Shown here: in pieces, positions 2,243-34,678 of the stretch
Layout: each line of letters begins with the position of its first letter
Numbering within the stretch: position 1 is the stretch's first letter
Assembly (NCBI GenBank): GCA_017390475.1
Contig: JAFPBO010000001.1
Span: 118,556-182,555, forward strand
Reading direction: 5' to 3'
Origin: Loktanella sp.
Lineage (GTDB): Bacteria > Pseudomonadota > Alphaproteobacteria > Rhodobacterales > Rhodobacteraceae
DNA: 64,000 nucleotides
Made by a program: the position numbers and the translations under genes
The notes under the pieces: model-generated
Seen by the model: the letters and a program-made list of their open reading frames with translations, nothing else
Database searches by the model: none
What the model was told of the DNA's origin: nothing

Positions 2243-3652
2243 ATGGCGGCACCGCTGGGCATTCTGATGGTCGCCCTGATCTTTGCGCAATTACTGGCAC
2301 GGATCACCGACAATCCGCTGGCACAGATGGCAACCTGGATGATTGCCGGTTGCGTCGTCGTCTTGGCGCGCAAATCCATGGGACTGCGCGAAGCCTATCT
2401 GCTGGCGCTCAGCGCGGTGCTGGCCGGATTGCTTGTGGTTTGGGGGAGTGATCCGGCGGGCGATATCGCGTCCGCATTGGATCAGGCAACCTTTCTGATG
2501 ACCTTCATCCTGTTGATGGGGCTGCTGCATGAGGCGGCCTCGACATCGCCTTCTGTCGAAAGTTGCGGACGCTATCTGACCCAGCAGCCCGCCGGACGGC
2601 AATATCCTGCACTTTATACCGGCACTGGTGTCATGGCCGTGTTGTTCAATCTGGGTGTCGTCAGCTTTCTGGTGCCTTTGGTCCGTCGGGGGATCGCCGC
2701 CGCGACACCGGGTGACGCGCAGAACCCGACCCGTGAACGCCGCCAGATCAGCGCGGTGTTGCGCGGTTTTGCCTGGTCAGTTGTCTGGTCGCCCACGGCC
2801 ATTGCGCCCTTGGCGGTGGTCGAGCTGATCCCCGGCGTCAACCGGCCGCTGTGGATCGGGCTGGGCTTTGGTATTTATCTGGCGATGCTGCTGCTGGGGG
2901 CGGTCGAAGACCGGCTGCGGTTTCGTGGGTTTCTGTTCGACAAGGACCGGCCTGCAGCGCCGTTTCCGTTGCTCGCCGCTACACTGTTCTTTGCGGCCTG
3001 CGGCGTGATGTTCATGATGACCCTGATCGCAATGTGGCTGACCGGCGATACCGTCGTGTTCGGCTTGATGCTGGCCTGCCCGGCGATGTTGATCGGCTGG
3101 GTGGGTGCGCAATATCTTCAACCGGCCGGGCAACCGCAGATGGTCGCCGCACAACAAGCCCTTACGGCGACTGGGCGGCGCTTGCATCACATCATCACGA
3201 TCAACCTACCGAAATCAGCGGCTATTGCGGTGACTTTGGGTTGTTCGGGCTTTGTCGGACGCGCTGCTGCGACGCTCATGCCTGCTGACGCGCTGGCCTC
3301 TGGTCTGGGCATTTACGCGATGCCGGATTTTGTGCTGCTCTCGCTGATCCCTGTGTTGCTGAGTCTGCTGAGCTTGCTTGCCCTCAGCCCGATCATGATG
3401 GCTGTGTTTTTCGGCAGCCTGTTCGGTTCGTTGGAGGTGATGCCCGCAAATCCCACGCTGATCGCGCTGTCGATTTCCTGCGGCTGGGCCTTGTCGATGA
3501 CCTTTTCGCCCTTTGCAACGGTTGTGCTGCTGATCGACCGGGTCGCGGGGATACCACCGCGACGGCTGACATGGGGCTGGAACCTGACCCATGCCGGGCT
3601 CAGCGCAATTGCCCTGGTCCCGGTTTTCGCCCTGCTTGCATGGTGGGTGTGA
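2243..3652 (+). CDS. polytopic membrane transporter, family unassigned
   Basis: The 469-residue product is strongly hydrophobic, with about 11-12 likely membrane segments. It has a cytoplasmic basic loop near residues 150-165 and a hydrophilic loop around 220-240. The general plan resembles ion-transporter-superfamily or GntP/DctM-like carboxylate carriers, but no diagnostic motif was recognised. It lies 27 bases after the LarA-like gene, probably in the same transcript, and the next feature is a cobalamin riboswitch that starts a new unit. Import or export of the hydroxy or sugar acid handled by the upstream enzymes is the simplest reading. Confidence 0.6.
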   Translation: MAAPLGILMVALIFAQLLARITDNPLAQMATWMIAGCVVVLARKSMGLREAYLLALSAVLAGLLVVWGSDPAGDIASALDQATFLMTFILLMGLLHEAASTSPSVESCGRYLTQQPAGRQYPALYTGTGVMAVLFNLGVVSFLVPLVRRGIAAATPGDAQNPTRERRQISAVLRGFAWSVVWSPTAIAPLAVVELIPGVNRPLWIGLGFGIYLAMLLLGAVEDRLRFRGFLFDKDRPAAPFPLLAATLFFAACGVMFMMTLIAMWLTGDTVVFGLMLACPAMLIGWVGAQYLQPAGQPQMVAAQQALTATGRRLHHIITINLPKSAAIAVTLGCSGFVGRAAATLMPADALASGLGIYAMPDFVLLSLIPVLLSLLSLLALSPIMMAVFFGSLFGSLEVMPANPTLIALSISCGWALSMTFSPFATVVLLIDRVAGIPPRRLTWGWNLTHAGLSAIALVPVFALLAWWV

Positions 3653-3694
3653 CGGGTTGACGACTGCGTTGGAATGTCACAATCTGGCGGCCGG

Positions 3695-3882
3695 ATGGTT
3701 CCCGGAAAGCCAAAGCTGACCGGGATGAAAAGGGAACACGGTGCGGAATAGCCATCAGGCGCCAAACCCGTGACTGCCCCCGCAACTGTGAGCGGTGAGC
3801 GACCCCGAGAATGCCACTGGACCAGCTACAGGTCCGGGAAGGTTTGGGGAAGTGTCGACCCGCAAGTCAGGAGACCTGCCAT
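3695..3882 (+). promoter_or_regulatory. cobalamin (adenosylcobalamin) riboswitch
   Basis: The segment contains the conserved blocks of the B12 riboswitch in order: AAAAGGGAACACGGTG at about 3728-3743, CCCGTGACTGCCCCCGCAAC (3767-3786), the B12 box GCCACTG (3812-3818), GGGAAGG (3836-3842), and the closing CGCAAGTCAGGAGACCTGCC (3861-3880). It precedes the importer genes at 4150-6941, so high cobalamin should lower their expression. A GCAA-tetraloop hairpin (3887-3902) and a GC-rich hairpin (about 3917-3935) follow and may form the expression platform; no T-run follows them, so control of ribosome access is more likely than termination. Confidence 0.93.
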
Positions 3883-4149
3883 CCGGGGTGTCGCAAGACA
3901 CCTGAATGTAATGCGACCCGGGCGGGGTGCCCCGGAAAAGAGGTCATGATGGCAAGACAACGGCTGATGCCGACAGAATTGGTCTGTTCCGACTTTTTGC
4001 AAGCCCCGCTTTGGCGCGGAGGGCTGCATGGAACAATCGAAACCACAAACCACAACTTTCATCATCGTCGGAAAGGACCGCAGGTGCGGGCTTGACCTGA
4101 TCGCCCGGCCATCGGCGATGTTGATCCGCCCCAGCGCGGGATCGGGGCA
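3883..4149 (+). other. riboswitch expression platform and leader with two short ORFs
   Basis: Between the aptamer and the ATPase start are about 267 bases with no recognisable gene. The best ribosome site after the riboswitch (AAGAGG, 3938-3943) precedes an ATG at 3946 that opens a 49-codon frame ending at 4095. A second 41-codon frame (ATG 4028) ends in an ATGA overlap with the ATPase start at 4150. Neither peptide resembles a known protein. One could be a leader peptide coupling riboswitch control to the transporter, or they may be the decayed remains of a former first gene. Confidence 0.4.
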
Positions 4150-4941
4150 ATGACGGCTGCGGCGATCACGGCAGCCAACCTTGGCTGGGGTCCGTCTGGT
4201 CAGCCTGCGATCCTGTCGGATGTCAGCTTTGATCTGGCACCGGGCCGGATGCTGGGGATCGTCGGGGCCAATGGGGCGGGTAAATCGACGCTGTTGCGCA
4301 TGCTGTACCGGTTCCATCGCCCGATGATCGGGGCGGTGACGCTGGATGGTGCTGATCTGTGGCAGCTGTCCGCGCGTGAAGCGGCTTGCCGGATCGCGGT
4401 GGTTCTGCAGGAACAACCCACCGATTTCGCCCTGAATGTGCGCGAGATTGTGGCCCTGGGTCGCACGCCGCATCGGCGCGGCTTTGCCGGTGGCGGCGCG
4501 CGTGACAGTCGGATCATCGAAAGCGCGTTGGACAGGCTTGGCCTGCAGCCTTTGGCGCACCGAGCGCTTGGCACGCTGTCGGGCGGCGAAAAACAGCGTG
4601 TGATGGTTGCCCGCGCGCTGGCGCAGGAACCCGGTCTGCTGATCCTGGATGAACCGACAAACCACCTTGATATCCGCCATCAGCTGCAGGTTCTGGCACT
4701 GGTGCGCGGCCTTGGCATCACCATTGTGACCAGCCTGCATGATCTGAACCTTGCCGGCGGGCTTTGCGATGACGTGCTGGTGCTGGCAGAGGGTCGGGCG
4801 CTGGCCTTTGGTCCGCCCGCCGAGGTGCTGACTGAAGCCATCGTCGCGCGCAGCTTTGCCGTCGTTGCCCGCCGCCAGACACTGCAGCCCAGCGGGCAGG
4901 CGCATTTTACCTATCATCTTACCGATCCTGAAAGGACCTGA
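4150..4941 (+). CDS. ABC transporter ATPase, BtuD/FecE type
   Basis: This 263-residue ATPase has Walker A GANGAGKST near residues 39-47, a Q-loop (VVLQEQPTD), the signature LSGGEKQR, Walker B LLILDEPTNHLD and the H-loop SLHDLN. That pattern is the FecE/BtuD/FhuC class, which energises metal-chelate and cobalamin import with FecCD-type permeases. It is the first large gene after the cobalamin riboswitch and is followed within 3 bases by the binding protein and then the permease. With the riboswitch, the likely substrate is cobalamin or a corrinoid precursor. The start ATG overlaps a short upstream frame as ATGA. Confidence 0.9.
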   Translation: MTAAAITAANLGWGPSGQPAILSDVSFDLAPGRMLGIVGANGAGKSTLLRMLYRFHRPMIGAVTLDGADLWQLSAREAACRIAVVLQEQPTDFALNVREIVALGRTPHRRGFAGGGARDSRIIESALDRLGLQPLAHRALGTLSGGEKQRVMVARALAQEPGLLILDEPTNHLDIRHQLQVLALVRGLGITIVTSLHDLNLAGGLCDDVLVLAEGRALAFGPPAEVLTEAIVARSFAVVARRQTLQPSGQAHFTYHLTDPERT

Positions 4942-4944
4942 ACC

Positions 4945-5889
4945 ATGAAACACCTGACTATTGCGGCCTGCGCATTGGCTGCAACGCAAGCCGCAGCACA
5001 AGATTATCCTATCACCGTGCAAAGCTGCGACCGACAGGTGACTTTTTACGCGGCCCCGGCGCGTGCGGTATCGCATGACGTGGCAATCACCGAAATGATG
5101 CTGGTGCTGGGCCTGCAGGGCCACATTGTCGGCTATACCGGGATCAGTGGCTGGAACAAGATTGATGAAATGCTGCGCGTCGATATCGCCGCGCTGCCGG
5201 AACTGGCCCCGCAAAGCCCGACCCGCGAAGTGCTGATCGGCGCGGATGCAGATTTTTTCTTTGCCGGATGGAATTATGGCCTGCGGGTAGGCGGCGAGCT
5301 GACCCCGGAAACGCTGGGTCAATATGGGATCGCGGTTTACGAGCTGACCGAAAGCTGTGCCCATATTATGGACAAGGGCAAGGCCAGCCTTGACGACATG
5401 TATGCGGATATCCTGAACCTTGGCCTGATCTTTGGTGTCTCAGACCGGGCCGAAGCCTTGGTCGCAGACTGGCAGGCCGAGGTTGCGGCGCTGACCGCCG
5501 ATGTTGCCCCGGACGACCTACCGCGGGTCTTTGTCTATGACAGCGGCGAAGATCAGCCGTTCACCGCTGGCCGCTATGCGATGCCGACCGCCTTGATCGA
5601 GGCGGCAGGCGGCACCAATATCATGGACACATTTGAGAAAAGCTGGGCCACCGTCGCATGGGAAGAAGTGATCGCGCAGGACCCCGAAGTGATCATGATC
5701 GTCAATTATGGCGACGTGACCGCCGAACAGAAACGCGACTTCATGCGCAATAACCCGGCCTTTGCAGACCTTCAGGCTGTGCGCAACGATCATTTCGTCA
5801 CGCTGGAATATGTCGAAGCGGTGCCGGGCCCGCGCAATATCAACGCGATCGCGACGCTGGCAGCCGCTTTCGCAGATGCGCGGCAATGA
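4945..5889 (+). CDS. periplasmic binding protein of corrinoid/siderophore ABC importer (BtuF/FecB-like)
   Basis: The 314-residue product begins with a Sec signal peptide (MKHLTIAACALAATQAAAQ), with cleavage likely after residue 19. The mature part has the two-lobe helical-backbone pattern of the TroA/BtuF/FecB class: an N-lobe segment around VSHDVAITEMMLVLGLQ, a central PREVLIGADADFFFAG-like region, and a C-lobe with WEEVIAQDPEVIMIV. Its place between the ATPase and the permease under a cobalamin riboswitch supports delivery of cobalamin or cobinamide to the permease. Siderophore binding is the main alternative, since the fold is shared. Confidence 0.85.
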   Translation: MKHLTIAACALAATQAAAQDYPITVQSCDRQVTFYAAPARAVSHDVAITEMMLVLGLQGHIVGYTGISGWNKIDEMLRVDIAALPELAPQSPTREVLIGADADFFFAGWNYGLRVGGELTPETLGQYGIAVYELTESCAHIMDKGKASLDDMYADILNLGLIFGVSDRAEALVADWQAEVAALTADVAPDDLPRVFVYDSGEDQPFTAGRYAMPTALIEAAGGTNIMDTFEKSWATVAWEEVIAQDPEVIMIVNYGDVTAEQKRDFMRNNPAFADLQAVRNDHFVTLEYVEAVPGPRNINAIATLAAAFADARQ

Positions 5890-31769: not shown

Positions 31770-31810
31770 AAAAAAAGCGGCCATGCCCGGGAGGAGGTGG
31801 GCATGACCGC
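31770..31810 (-). terminator. CcsR-like hairpin 7, also intrinsic terminator
   Basis: GCGG-C-CATGCCC pairs with GGGCATG-A-CCGC (11 pairs, one mismatch) around a loop that reads ACCTCCTCCC on the minus strand. Seven T residues follow on that strand (31770-31776 as A in the plus strand). The last small RNA thus ends on its own terminator. Confidence 0.85.
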
Positions 31811-31820
31811 TCTATGATCA

Positions 31821-31859
31821 GCGCCTCCTTGCGTCTCGGGAGGAGAAGAAGCAAGGCGC
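31821..31859 (-). ncRNA. CcsR-like hairpin 6 (variant motif)
   Basis: GCGCC-TTGC pairs with GCAA-GGCGC, with a three-base bulge. The loop reads TCTCCTCCC on the minus strand, the only unit that departs from CCTCCTCCC, and it has the largest loop. Confidence 0.7.
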
Positions 31860-31864
31860 GTCCT

Positions 31865-31902
31865 CGCTGGTGTTGCTCGGGAGGAGGTGAGCGTGACCAG
31901 CG
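31865..31902 (-). ncRNA. CcsR-like hairpin 5
   Basis: An outer 7-bp stem (CGCTGGT/ACCAGCG) and an inner 4-bp stem (GCTC/GAGC) are separated by a 3x3 internal loop. The apical loop on the minus strand contains ACCTCCTCCC (motif 31879-31887). Confidence 0.8.
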
Positions 31903-31913
31903 GTATTATCGGT

Positions 31914-31940
31914 TCCAACCCGGGAGGAGGTGGGCGGTTC
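31914..31940 (-). ncRNA. CcsR-like hairpin 4 (weak stem)
   Basis: The exact motif (31922-31930) is enclosed by a short CCC/GGG stem and a CC/GG extension across an internal loop. This is the least stable fold of the seven; flanking CGGTTCC direct repeats may offer alternative pairing. Confidence 0.6.
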
Positions 31941-31958
31941 CGAAACTTGTGTCTTAAA

Positions 31959-31992
31959 GTGGCGGCACCTGGGAGGAGGTAGGTGCCGCCAC
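31959..31992 (-). ncRNA. CcsR-like hairpin 3 (12-bp perfect stem)
   Basis: GTGGCGGCACCT and AGGTGCCGCCAC form a perfect 12-bp stem. The ten-base loop on the minus strand is exactly ACCTCCTCCC, so the loop consists of nothing but the motif and one A. This is the clearest unit. Confidence 0.88.
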
Positions 31993-32001
31993 CTTAATTT
32001 T

Positions 32002-32035
32002 GGCCCGCTGCCCTGGGAGGAGGTAGGGTCGGGCC
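32002..32035 (-). ncRNA. CcsR-like hairpin 2
   Basis: GGCCCG/CGGGCC (6 bp) and CCCT/AGGG (4 bp) stack across a 3x1 internal loop, with ACCTCCTCCC in the apical loop on the minus strand (motif 32015-32023). Confidence 0.8.
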
Positions 32036-32040
32036 GGTCA

Positions 32041-32072
32041 GATCTGCTTTTTCAGGGAGGAGGCAGCAGATC
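32041..32072 (-). ncRNA. CcsR-like hairpin 1
   Basis: GATCTGC/GCAGATC form a perfect 7-bp stem with an 18-base loop that holds GCCTCCTCCC on the minus strand (motif 32055-32063). It begins 12 bases after the DUF1127 stop codon. Confidence 0.8.
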
Positions 32073-32084
32073 CGATTTCAGAAT

Positions 32085-32300
32085 TCATTTGCCGTAGGCG
32101 GCTTCCATTGCAATGAACCGGATGTCGGACCGGGACAAGCCCAGGTCAGCCAGATCGCGGTTTGACAGCGCCTGCAATTCACGCAGTGTCGTCATGTAGA
32201 CTTTGCGCTTTGCCAGCTTGTCTGCCAGAGTGACGCGGAAGCCTGACAGGCGCTCAGCGAAAGATGTCGTCGCTGGGATTGTGATGTTGAATGTTGTCAT
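32085..32300 (-). CDS. DUF1127 small protein, CcaF1-like
   Basis: The 71-residue protein ends with a typical DUF1127 domain: TTLRELQALSNRDLADLGLSRSDI (residues 37-60) followed by RFIAMEAAYGK. In Rhodobacter sphaeroides the DUF1127 protein CcaF1 is an RNA-binding factor that influences maturation and stability of the CcsR RNAs encoded behind it. Size, domain and the array 12 bases downstream support the same role here. The start at 32300 is the only ATG placing a plausible N-terminus; the ribosome site is weak. One transcript with the RNAs is expected. Confidence 0.9.
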   Translation of the reverse strand: MTTFNITIPATTSFAERLSGFRVTLADKLAKRKVYMTTLRELQALSNRDLADLGLSRSDIRFIAMEAAYGK

Positions 32301-32355
32301 TTCGCTACTCGTCTTTTCTGTCTTAGTGGCTGTAGTGCCGTTCTGTTGTGACCAA

Positions 32356-32383
32356 TATGTATGATGATGCTGCACTTGCACAA
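32356..32383 (-). promoter_or_regulatory. candidate promoter for the DUF1127/CcsR-like transcript
   Basis: On the minus strand TTGTGC (32378-32383) and TACATA (32356-32361) are 16 bases apart, 56 bases before the DUF1127 start. In R. sphaeroides this locus uses RpoHI/RpoHII promoters; whether these elements fit that sigma class was judged only by eye. Confidence 0.3.
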
Positions 32384-32548
32384 TGGTCGAATGGGCAATG
32401 CTGCTATGCAGAAAGTGCATAAGTATTGCTGACCTAATGTCATCTTTTTGTTGCAAAACTAGGCGGGCAGGCCGTTCCCCTTGCGGATTGCTCAAAACGT
32501 GCCAGAACGTGATGAAAAAATTGGCGAAATTGAAACGGAGGTGCTGAG

Positions 32549-34116: not shown

Positions 34117-34678
34117 CCGGGATTTCATGGAATCGATCACGTTTCCGAATCAATCTGTGAGATTTCGCGAGTGAGATGCCACAGGTCAGGCTGAGTCGGC
34201 ATTGGTCACGGCAGGTTTTTCATAGCGCTGCGATTTTTCTGCATCAATCCGCCTATGCTGTTTTGTACCTTATATGGTGTATGATCTTTGCCGTTACGCT
34301 ATATTTACGAAAATTTTGCGGCAATATGGTCAGAAAGGCGATCTGGCGGCGACCCTTCGTCCCATCAAGTTCCATGAATTCCCAAAAAGTTGTTGATCAC
34401 CATTGCCGGTGATGGCACAACAGGGACAAGGTGATGCCGGACACGACAACAATGGGGCAGATCAAGAACCCCAACCGGCAAAAAGCAGGTTTCATACAGG
34501 CTTCGGCAGCACCAAAAACGATCCGGCGCGTGAGCGAGCAGACATCCCCCCAGGTGGCACGCGTAGTCGGACTTACCCAGCGATGGGACGAGGATGGCGG
34601 ATTGTGCAGTGGCAGCAGCGCAATCCGCCATTTTCACATCCGGAAAGTGGTTTCCGGCGGGCAGTAGGGACGTAGGGC
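34117..34678. other. 562-base gap before mraZ
   Basis: No convincing gene or structured RNA was recognised. The first 270 bases are AT-richer than their surroundings and probably hold the promoter of the dcw cluster. An inverted repeat ATCACC/GGTGAT (34396-34413, 6-base centre) is present. Immediately before the mraZ start, GGG recurs every 8 bases (34659, 34667, 34675). Short frames in the right half encode nothing recognisable. Confidence 0.5.

Follow-up and report, generated by a model that had tools for sequence, protein, structure and literature searches.

A row of seven CcsR-like hairpins behind a DUF1127 gene, kept across a genus of the Yoonia/Loktanella group

In Rhodobacter sphaeroides, a 71-aa DUF1127 gene is described as co-transcribed with small RNAs in an operon that ends in a Rho-independent terminator (PMC10253847). 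According to the same account, this ccaF1-CcsR locus has an RpoHI/RpoHII promoter, the association with DUF1127 is known as the CIN1 locus, and the CcaF1 protein binds RNA and takes part in CcsR maturation (PMC10253847). The CcsR1-4 RNAs are reported to target flhR (PMC8307010) and to contribute to a decrease in the pyruvate dehydrogenase complex (PMC7074977). In Rfam, the name of CcsR1 derives from the conserved motif CCUCCUCCC. RNAs with CCUCCUCCC loops, variable stems, and a varying number of hairpin modules were described by Reinkensmeier et al. 2011 (PMC3927594), among them a two-stem-loop relative in Rhodobacter. Since the Rhodobacter sRNA RS0680a is given as two stem-loops (PMC3927594, section 2.7), we infer that the four CcsR RNAs comprise about eight hairpins. 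Related RNAs occur in other alphaproteobacteria. The ar14 RNA of Sinorhizobium meliloti, NfeR1, carries three identical and redundant CCUCCUCCC loops and is described as silencing ntrB and the mRNAs of two ABC periplasmic components by masking their ribosome sites (PMC10746234).

We analyzed a window, a 64,000-nt stretch of Loktanella sp. DNA, in which an earlier note had described seven hairpins, six with the loop CCTCCTCCC and one with CTCCTCCC, behind a same-strand DUF1127 gene of 71 residues and ending in a terminator. This anatomy was confirmed (Table 1). Seven CTCCTCCC cores occupy the minus strand from 31789 to 32062 (lower coordinates 32055, 32015, 31971, 31922, 31879, 31838, and 31789), and each falls within a predicted hairpin. 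Six are preceded by C, which makes them exact copies of CCTCCTCCC; the core at 31838-31845 is preceded by T. The 4.13-Mb genome contains 10 copies of this 9-mer on both strands together, six of them in the array and the other four as single copies on other contigs, where we viewed 100-nt contexts. A chance cluster in CT-rich DNA was ruled out by these counts (six 9-mers on one strand in 283 nt, P ~2e-24) and by simulation: 60 order-1 simulated windows yielded no 300-nt cluster of more than two.

Table 1. Coordinates, in the window, of the features of the DUF1127 gene and hairpin row
Feature	Position	Strand	Remarks
Palindromic element TTATGCACTTTCTGCATAGCAGCATTG	32396-32422	-	Upstream of the promoter-like site; conserved in the genus
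Promoter-like element TTGTGCA...TGCAGCAT...TACAT	32357..32383	-	Conserved in the upstream alignment of genus loci
DUF1127 (ccaF1-like) gene, 71 aa	32085..32300	-	ATG start; span includes stop; PF06568, 48.3 bits (cut-off 23.3)
Seven-hairpin row, whole	31770-32075	-	Directly 3' of the DUF1127 gene
Hairpin 1, loop CCTCCTCCC	32038..32075	-	Helix 1: double changes in 9/11 pairs
Hairpin 2, loop CCTCCTCCC	32002..32035	-	Lowest position specificity (59% same-position best matches)
Hairpin 3, loop CCTCCTCCC	31956..31995	-	Double changes in 8/13 pairs
Hairpin 4, loop CCTCCTCCC	31909..31943	-	Double changes in 4/9 pairs
Hairpin 5, loop CCTCCTCCC	31865..31902	-	3' end overlapped by GAGGA (31861-31865)
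Hairpin 6, loop CTCCTCCC	31821..31859	-	AAGGAGG within 3' arm; double changes in 3/6 pairs
Hairpin 7 = intrinsic terminator, loop CCTCCTCCC	31770..31811	-	Runs on into seven T; helix 11 paired in 99.1% of cells

The locus is of the ccaF1-CcsR kind ("CIN1" or cuckoo-type), a known class of bacterial regulator, as the earlier note had recognized: a short DUF1127 gene stands directly upstream on the same strand, the hairpins have CCUCCUCCC loops, and a Rho-independent terminator follows at the 3' end. Covariance models of the CcsR and cuckoo families, proposed there as a check, matched at E values near 2e-7 but below their gathering scores (ar14, RF02344, 47.6 bits, E 1.7e-7, gathering 58.8; CcsR1, RF02791, 37.4 bits, E 2e-7, gathering 65.3), and the array was therefore filed under neither family. 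The match to ar7 (RF02342) was weak (33.5 bits, gathering 60). Gene order is the same as in R. sphaeroides (DUF1127 gene, RNAs, terminator), with seven single hairpins 37-52 nt apart in place of the eight or so inferred for Rhodobacter. With the cuckoo RNAs, and with ar14, the row shares identical CCUCCUCCC loops on strongly differing stems; the stem differences that define cuckoo RNAs (Reinkensmeier and Giegerich 2015, as quoted in PMC4504443) are found here between units of one array. However, those RNAs have two to four hairpins as quoted there, three in ar14, and are described as stand-alone sRNA genes present in multiple copies, whereas the window has seven hairpins in one row behind a DUF1127 gene. 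AbcR1/AbcR2 and other alphaproteobacterial anti-Shine-Dalgarno (anti-SD) sRNAs are likewise described with anti-SD motifs, and ABC transporter mRNAs abound among their predicted targets; they differ in being Hfq-binding RNAs of three stem-loops with two CU-rich motifs, for which the relevant part of PMC7143759 mentions no DUF1127 link. In the literature that we searched, we found neither rows of 7 to 26 such hairpins nor a genus-fixed hairpin number nor an array lacking its DUF1127 gene; the original family papers may describe some of these.

The window genome belongs to the Yoonia/Loktanella group; among the closest named matches of its DUF1127 protein were Loktanella sp. B1Sed10_179 (80%) and two genomes of Yoonia vestfoldensis (73% and 70%). 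A protein search found a DUF1127 match at E<=0.001 in 30 of 31 genomes of the genus, the window's own included. Seven units stood beside ccaF1 in 29 of the 30 loci when cores were counted over the first 345 nt from a loose list in which variants such as GCCTCCCC or CTCGTCCC also qualify; a seven-unit array contains between 3 and 7 exact 9-mers. The exception is an 83% complete genome (G198, locus L058) with a decayed row, in which two cores are recognizable and which was left out of the genus alignment (A2, 29 of 30 loci). Counting one further genome (G204, below), seven units are present in 30 of the 31 sampled. A fold-based detector, which misses some degenerate units, gave seven hairpins in 24 of the 30 loci, six in 4, eight in 1, and two in 1; one locus (L053) has an extra core about 100 nt past the terminator. 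Spacing was narrow across the genus, at 37-52 nt overall, 37-45 nt for units 4-5, and 42-52 nt for units 6-7, the widest range of any gap.

Individual units could be followed from species to species. The best match of a stem was the same-numbered unit of another species in 4,584 of 5,684 comparisons (81%; chance, 14%), and arms scored +11.8 within a position versus -6.1 between positions, with units of one array differing strongly in their stems. By this sequence comparison, the units are positional orthologues across the genus. The consensus structure of the 29-sequence alignment has 70 pairs, with 96.5% of 2,007 cells paired, and a T run follows hairpin 7 in all 29 arrays. Compensatory changes in relatives were found, as expected from the earlier note's view that loop motif and fold are under selection: both sides had changed in 43 of the 70 pairs, compared with a shuffled mean of 18.3 and with 11-15 when partners were slid. 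Hairpin 2 was the weakest, with four consensus pairs in the whole-array alignment and none when the units were aligned separately. Together, the seven-unit counts, positional orthology, and covariation argue that the row is old, that its units have kept their places, and that loops and folds are under selection. Seven hairpins thus look like an old, fixed feature of the genus and not like a recent expansion.

The loop cores are predicted to be open. Their five central bases averaged 93.5% unpaired versus 40% for the whole array, and the mean unpaired probability over the 29 genus arrays ranged from 0.77 in unit 6 to 1.00; in the minimum-energy fold of the window, the unit-6 core is partly paired, and a first detector missed this unit. 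Between hairpins 5 and 6 lies an SD-like pentamer, GAGGA (31861-31865, minus strand), which 27 of the 29 genus arrays have and which could pair with the array's loops. A self-masking switch through GAGGA or the AAGGAGG of hairpin 6 is conceivable, and the predicted folds give no clear sign of one.

The array also occurs where the gene before it is missing. One 99% complete genome (G204) is the only one sampled in the genus without a DUF1127 match at threshold, and the array is still there: around 1440-1850 of its locus (L149), a promoter-like element is followed by seven exact CCTCCTCCC hairpins and a terminator. At this locus, no DUF1127 frame lies between the promoter-like element and the hairpins, and the distance from TACAT to the first loop core is 54 nt, as against 298 nt in the window. 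The RNA row has therefore been kept in G204 without its neighbor gene. Two other DUF1127 matches exist elsewhere in that genome, so that such a protein may help in trans. An element resembling the palindrome TTATGCACTTTCTGCATAGCAGCATTG is visible in G204 too. By analogy with R. sphaeroides, the promoter-like element might be linked to RpoHI/HII.

Outside the genus, hairpin number varies widely. In a scan of the family with a single genome for each genus (198 genomes), 143 had two exact 9-mers 10-40 nt apart, with a reversed-pattern control lower in most of those genomes. Thirty family loci were fetched, and 23 had a DUF1127 match, 21 of them with at least two hairpins; the seven others include a stretch that ends before the gene (L007). 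Around 80 named DUF1127 loci, an approximate detector counted no hairpins at 7 loci, 2-6 at 28, seven at 14, 8-15 at 30, and 23 at one, some loci sharing a genome (e.g., two each from Paracoccus acridae and WLY502). The earlier note had suggested that this lineage expanded the array to seven. We reject an expansion in the window's lineage as unsupported: seven is common to the sampled genus, Rhodobacter has about eight hairpins by inference, and by the same approximate counts 31 of the 80 named loci exceed seven, 14 equal it, and 35 fall short of it, 7 of them with no hairpins at all. Array-bearing relatives carry from 2 to 26 hairpins. Four Loktanella loci have 15, 15, 15, and 23, and their rows group together (100/98) in a tree of 81 DUF1127 rows, which has 72 columns and many unresolved forks and which we used for this grouping only.

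The note's argument against recent tandem duplication holds for the window's genus but not for some relatives. In Loktanella atrilutea (L074, about 4170-5150), the row of 23 contains repeats of near-identical four-hairpin blocks. Another genome (G165, locus L146, reverse strand) has a DUF1127 frame followed by 26 exact CCTCCTCCC loops, which extend from ~2381 to 3552 of the reverse complement; for the most part, its units repeat with a period of three hairpins. Among the 67 named arrays of at least four hairpins, 18 show an alternation of short and long gaps that would suit hairpins arranged in pairs, a pattern that the arrays of the window's genus lack. Carriage on mobile elements was considered as well, and 31770-32330 had no DNA-level match in the plasmid or phage collection. 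At the protein level, the DUF1127 sequence matched six plasmid records, four of which were fetched. Two have CTCCTCC cores after the gene, five on plasmid pAK2 of Paracoccus sp. AK26 (L375) and two on a plasmid of Pseudorhodobacter turbinis (L376); behind the DUF1127 genes of the others (L374 and L377) there were no CTCCTCC cores.

How the row might act is suggested by its described relatives. Probably under stress, one transcript would comprise the small CcaF1-like frame and the seven hairpins, the last serving as terminator. Every hairpin would display an identical unpaired CCUCCUCCC loop, similar to the anti-SD end of 16S rRNA. Cleavage in the linkers, presumably by RNase E and perhaps with the DUF1127 protein taking part in maturation, would free the hairpins as redundant anti-SD regulators in trans. 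By pairing with GGAGGAG(G)-phase ribosome-binding sites, these would prevent translation. The likeliest targets would be genes for nutrient uptake by transporters (periplasmic binding proteins and TRAP, ABC, or TTT parts), together with some central-carbon genes, e.g., pyruvate dehydrogenase E1. We consider such silencing of GGAGGAG-phase mRNAs, mostly for uptake transporters, to be the best explanation of the row and a probable one. The 16S tail GGCTGGATCACCTCCTTT was found in two of six genus genomes searched, and ACCTCCT is common to tail and loops; in the window's own assembly, the tail was not found, and a single hit there proved to be an SD-like site that precedes an ATG.

We compared genes behind two phases of the SD sequence in the window genome. 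GGAGGAG-N3-10-ATG sites numbered 45 versus 3 for the reversed control, and AAGGAGG sites 31 versus 11, which makes the AAGGAGG comparison set noisier and slightly lowers our confidence in the mechanism. From the 45 GGAGGAG sites (44 loci, one of which, L157, is the array's own complement), 27 frames of at least 100 aa were kept and 17 dropped; from the 31 AAGGAGG sites (30 fetched), 18 frames were kept and 12 dropped, and one gene (L158 = L195) is counted in both sets. Parts of uptake transporters accounted for 15 of 27 genes behind GGAGGAG versus 3 of 18 behind AAGGAGG (Fisher P = 0.013), and solute-binding proteins for 10 of 27 versus 0 of 18 (Fisher P = 0.003), in classes chosen after the hits had been seen, so that the enrichment is post hoc. 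The ten solute-binding proteins were four DctP, two TctC, two Peripla_BP_4, one Peripla_BP_6, and one SBP_bac_1, in addition to five further transporter parts. The GGAGGAG set also contained an E1_dh protein resembling pyruvate dehydrogenase E1 (L219), a thiolase (with a frame open far upstream), a short-chain dehydrogenase, and an acetyl-CoA-synthetase-like enzyme. An open frame of at least 50 codons lay upstream of 4 of 27 GGAGGAG and 4 of 18 AAGGAGG starts.

Two further genomes were examined in the same way. In G226, a scan of 2.0 Mb of about 4 Mb left 13 frames from 18 GGAGGAG sites and 10 from 12 AAGGAGG sites. Here the tendency was the same but weak and not significant: transporter parts made up 7 of 13 versus 1 of 10 (P = 0.07) and solute-binding proteins 4 of 13 versus 1 of 10 (P = 0.34), three of the ten AAGGAGG proteins being judged by their first 50 residues and not by Pfam. 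Several of these genes look like orthologues of those in the window genome, and the replicate is therefore not independent. In G130, a presumed array-less control in which absence was judged by eye, 40 of 144 sites were fetched, giving 39 distinct frames, of which 18 were kept; uptake-transporter parts were 1 of 18, but 10 of the 18 starts had an open frame of at least 50 codons upstream and are doubtful, which makes the genome a poor control. Sites of the form GGAGGAG-N3-10-ATG numbered 144 in G130 and 153 in G101 (reversed controls, 27 and 26), as against 45 (control, 3) in the window genome; this roughly threefold excess in two genomes that both seem to be without the array may come from base composition. 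Strong SD sequences in front of solute-binding genes may also simply reflect high expression. We treat the transporter enrichment as a lead that agrees with published work rather than as proof.

Other readings of the row were weighed against the silencing of GGAGGAG-phase mRNAs. On the plus strand, the same DNA would form hairpins with GGGAGGAGG loops, like the CsrB/RsmZ sponges of CsrA. GGA in hairpin loops is the pattern that CsrA binds, and the GGGAGGAGG loops carry it; moreover, single-sequence energies are nearly equal between the strands (minus lower in 17 of 29, which is not decisive), and the plus-strand consensus fold taken alone also has more G-U than A-C cells (242 versus 62). We nonetheless disfavor a CsrA sponge as highly improbable, given that T-tract, promoter-like element, and ccaF1 are all on the minus strand, that consensus folding is stronger there (-102.6 versus -65.8 kcal/mol), and that, for the 48 pairs which both strands are predicted to form, the minus strand has 56 G-U versus 20 A-C cells. 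It is very unlikely that the row acts in cis only, as a 3' UTR with a protective or processing role for the ccaF1 mRNA and as its transcription terminator. Its place directly 3' of the gene and its terminator end would suit such a role, but G204 keeps a promoter-like element and seven hairpins with no DUF1127 frame between them, and what is most constant is the loop sequence, for which a stabilizing 3' UTR would have no need.

Repeated hairpins might instead bind and titrate a protein, be it CcaF1 itself, Hfq, or an RNase, and the RNA binding and maturation role reported for CcaF1 of R. sphaeroides (PMC10253847) speak for this. Against it, the constant part of the row is complementary to SD sequences, and the G204 array persists with no ccaF1 at the locus, although with the two other DUF1127 matches mentioned above; we regard a protein sponge as rather unlikely. 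Somewhat unlikely, too, is a general brake on translation, in which the loops would act as SD decoys that titrate mRNA ribosome-binding sites at large under stress, with no specific regulon and with hairpin number setting the dose. Near-identical anti-SD loops that are all predicted to be open would fit a brake, as would the range of 2 to 26 hairpins in array-bearing relatives. What counts against it is that seven is kept throughout the sampled genus, that the genome has few GGAGGAG-phase starts (45 sites), with a functional skew among them, and that the studied relatives are described as having named targets.

Tentatively, and with less confidence than in the silencing of GGAGGAG-phase mRNAs itself, we propose that hairpin number may be an evolvable dose dial, set and then kept in each lineage (7 in the genus, 15-23 in four Loktanella loci, 26 in G165) and growing by blocks of three or four. 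The regulon might be written in the phase of the SD sequence, with GGAGGAG sites of transporter genes fitting the sRNA loops better than the ribosome, and the array might turn into a free-standing sRNA gene after loss of the protein.

Two other features of the window were noted. A cobalamin riboswitch (135.4 bits) is located at 3679-3897, and a gap of ~560 nt (34117-34678) lies ahead of a 164-aa frame that resembles MraZ. A search of this presumed mraZ leader (34117-34678) with Rfam for UpsM returned only one weak, unrelated match. In R. sphaeroides, the sRNA UpsM is described in the dcw leader (PMC5089854).

The retention of seven hairpins within a genus, the block-grown rows of 23 to 26, and the G204 locus with no protein gene are, in our view, more interesting than the expansion first proposed. 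They turn a one-genome curiosity into comparative data on a loop that occurs in 2 to 26 copies after genes of one kind, and they raise testable questions about the reason for this repetition and about the need for CcaF1 in cis. The idea that SD phase marks the regulon would provide a concrete and falsifiable list of targets.
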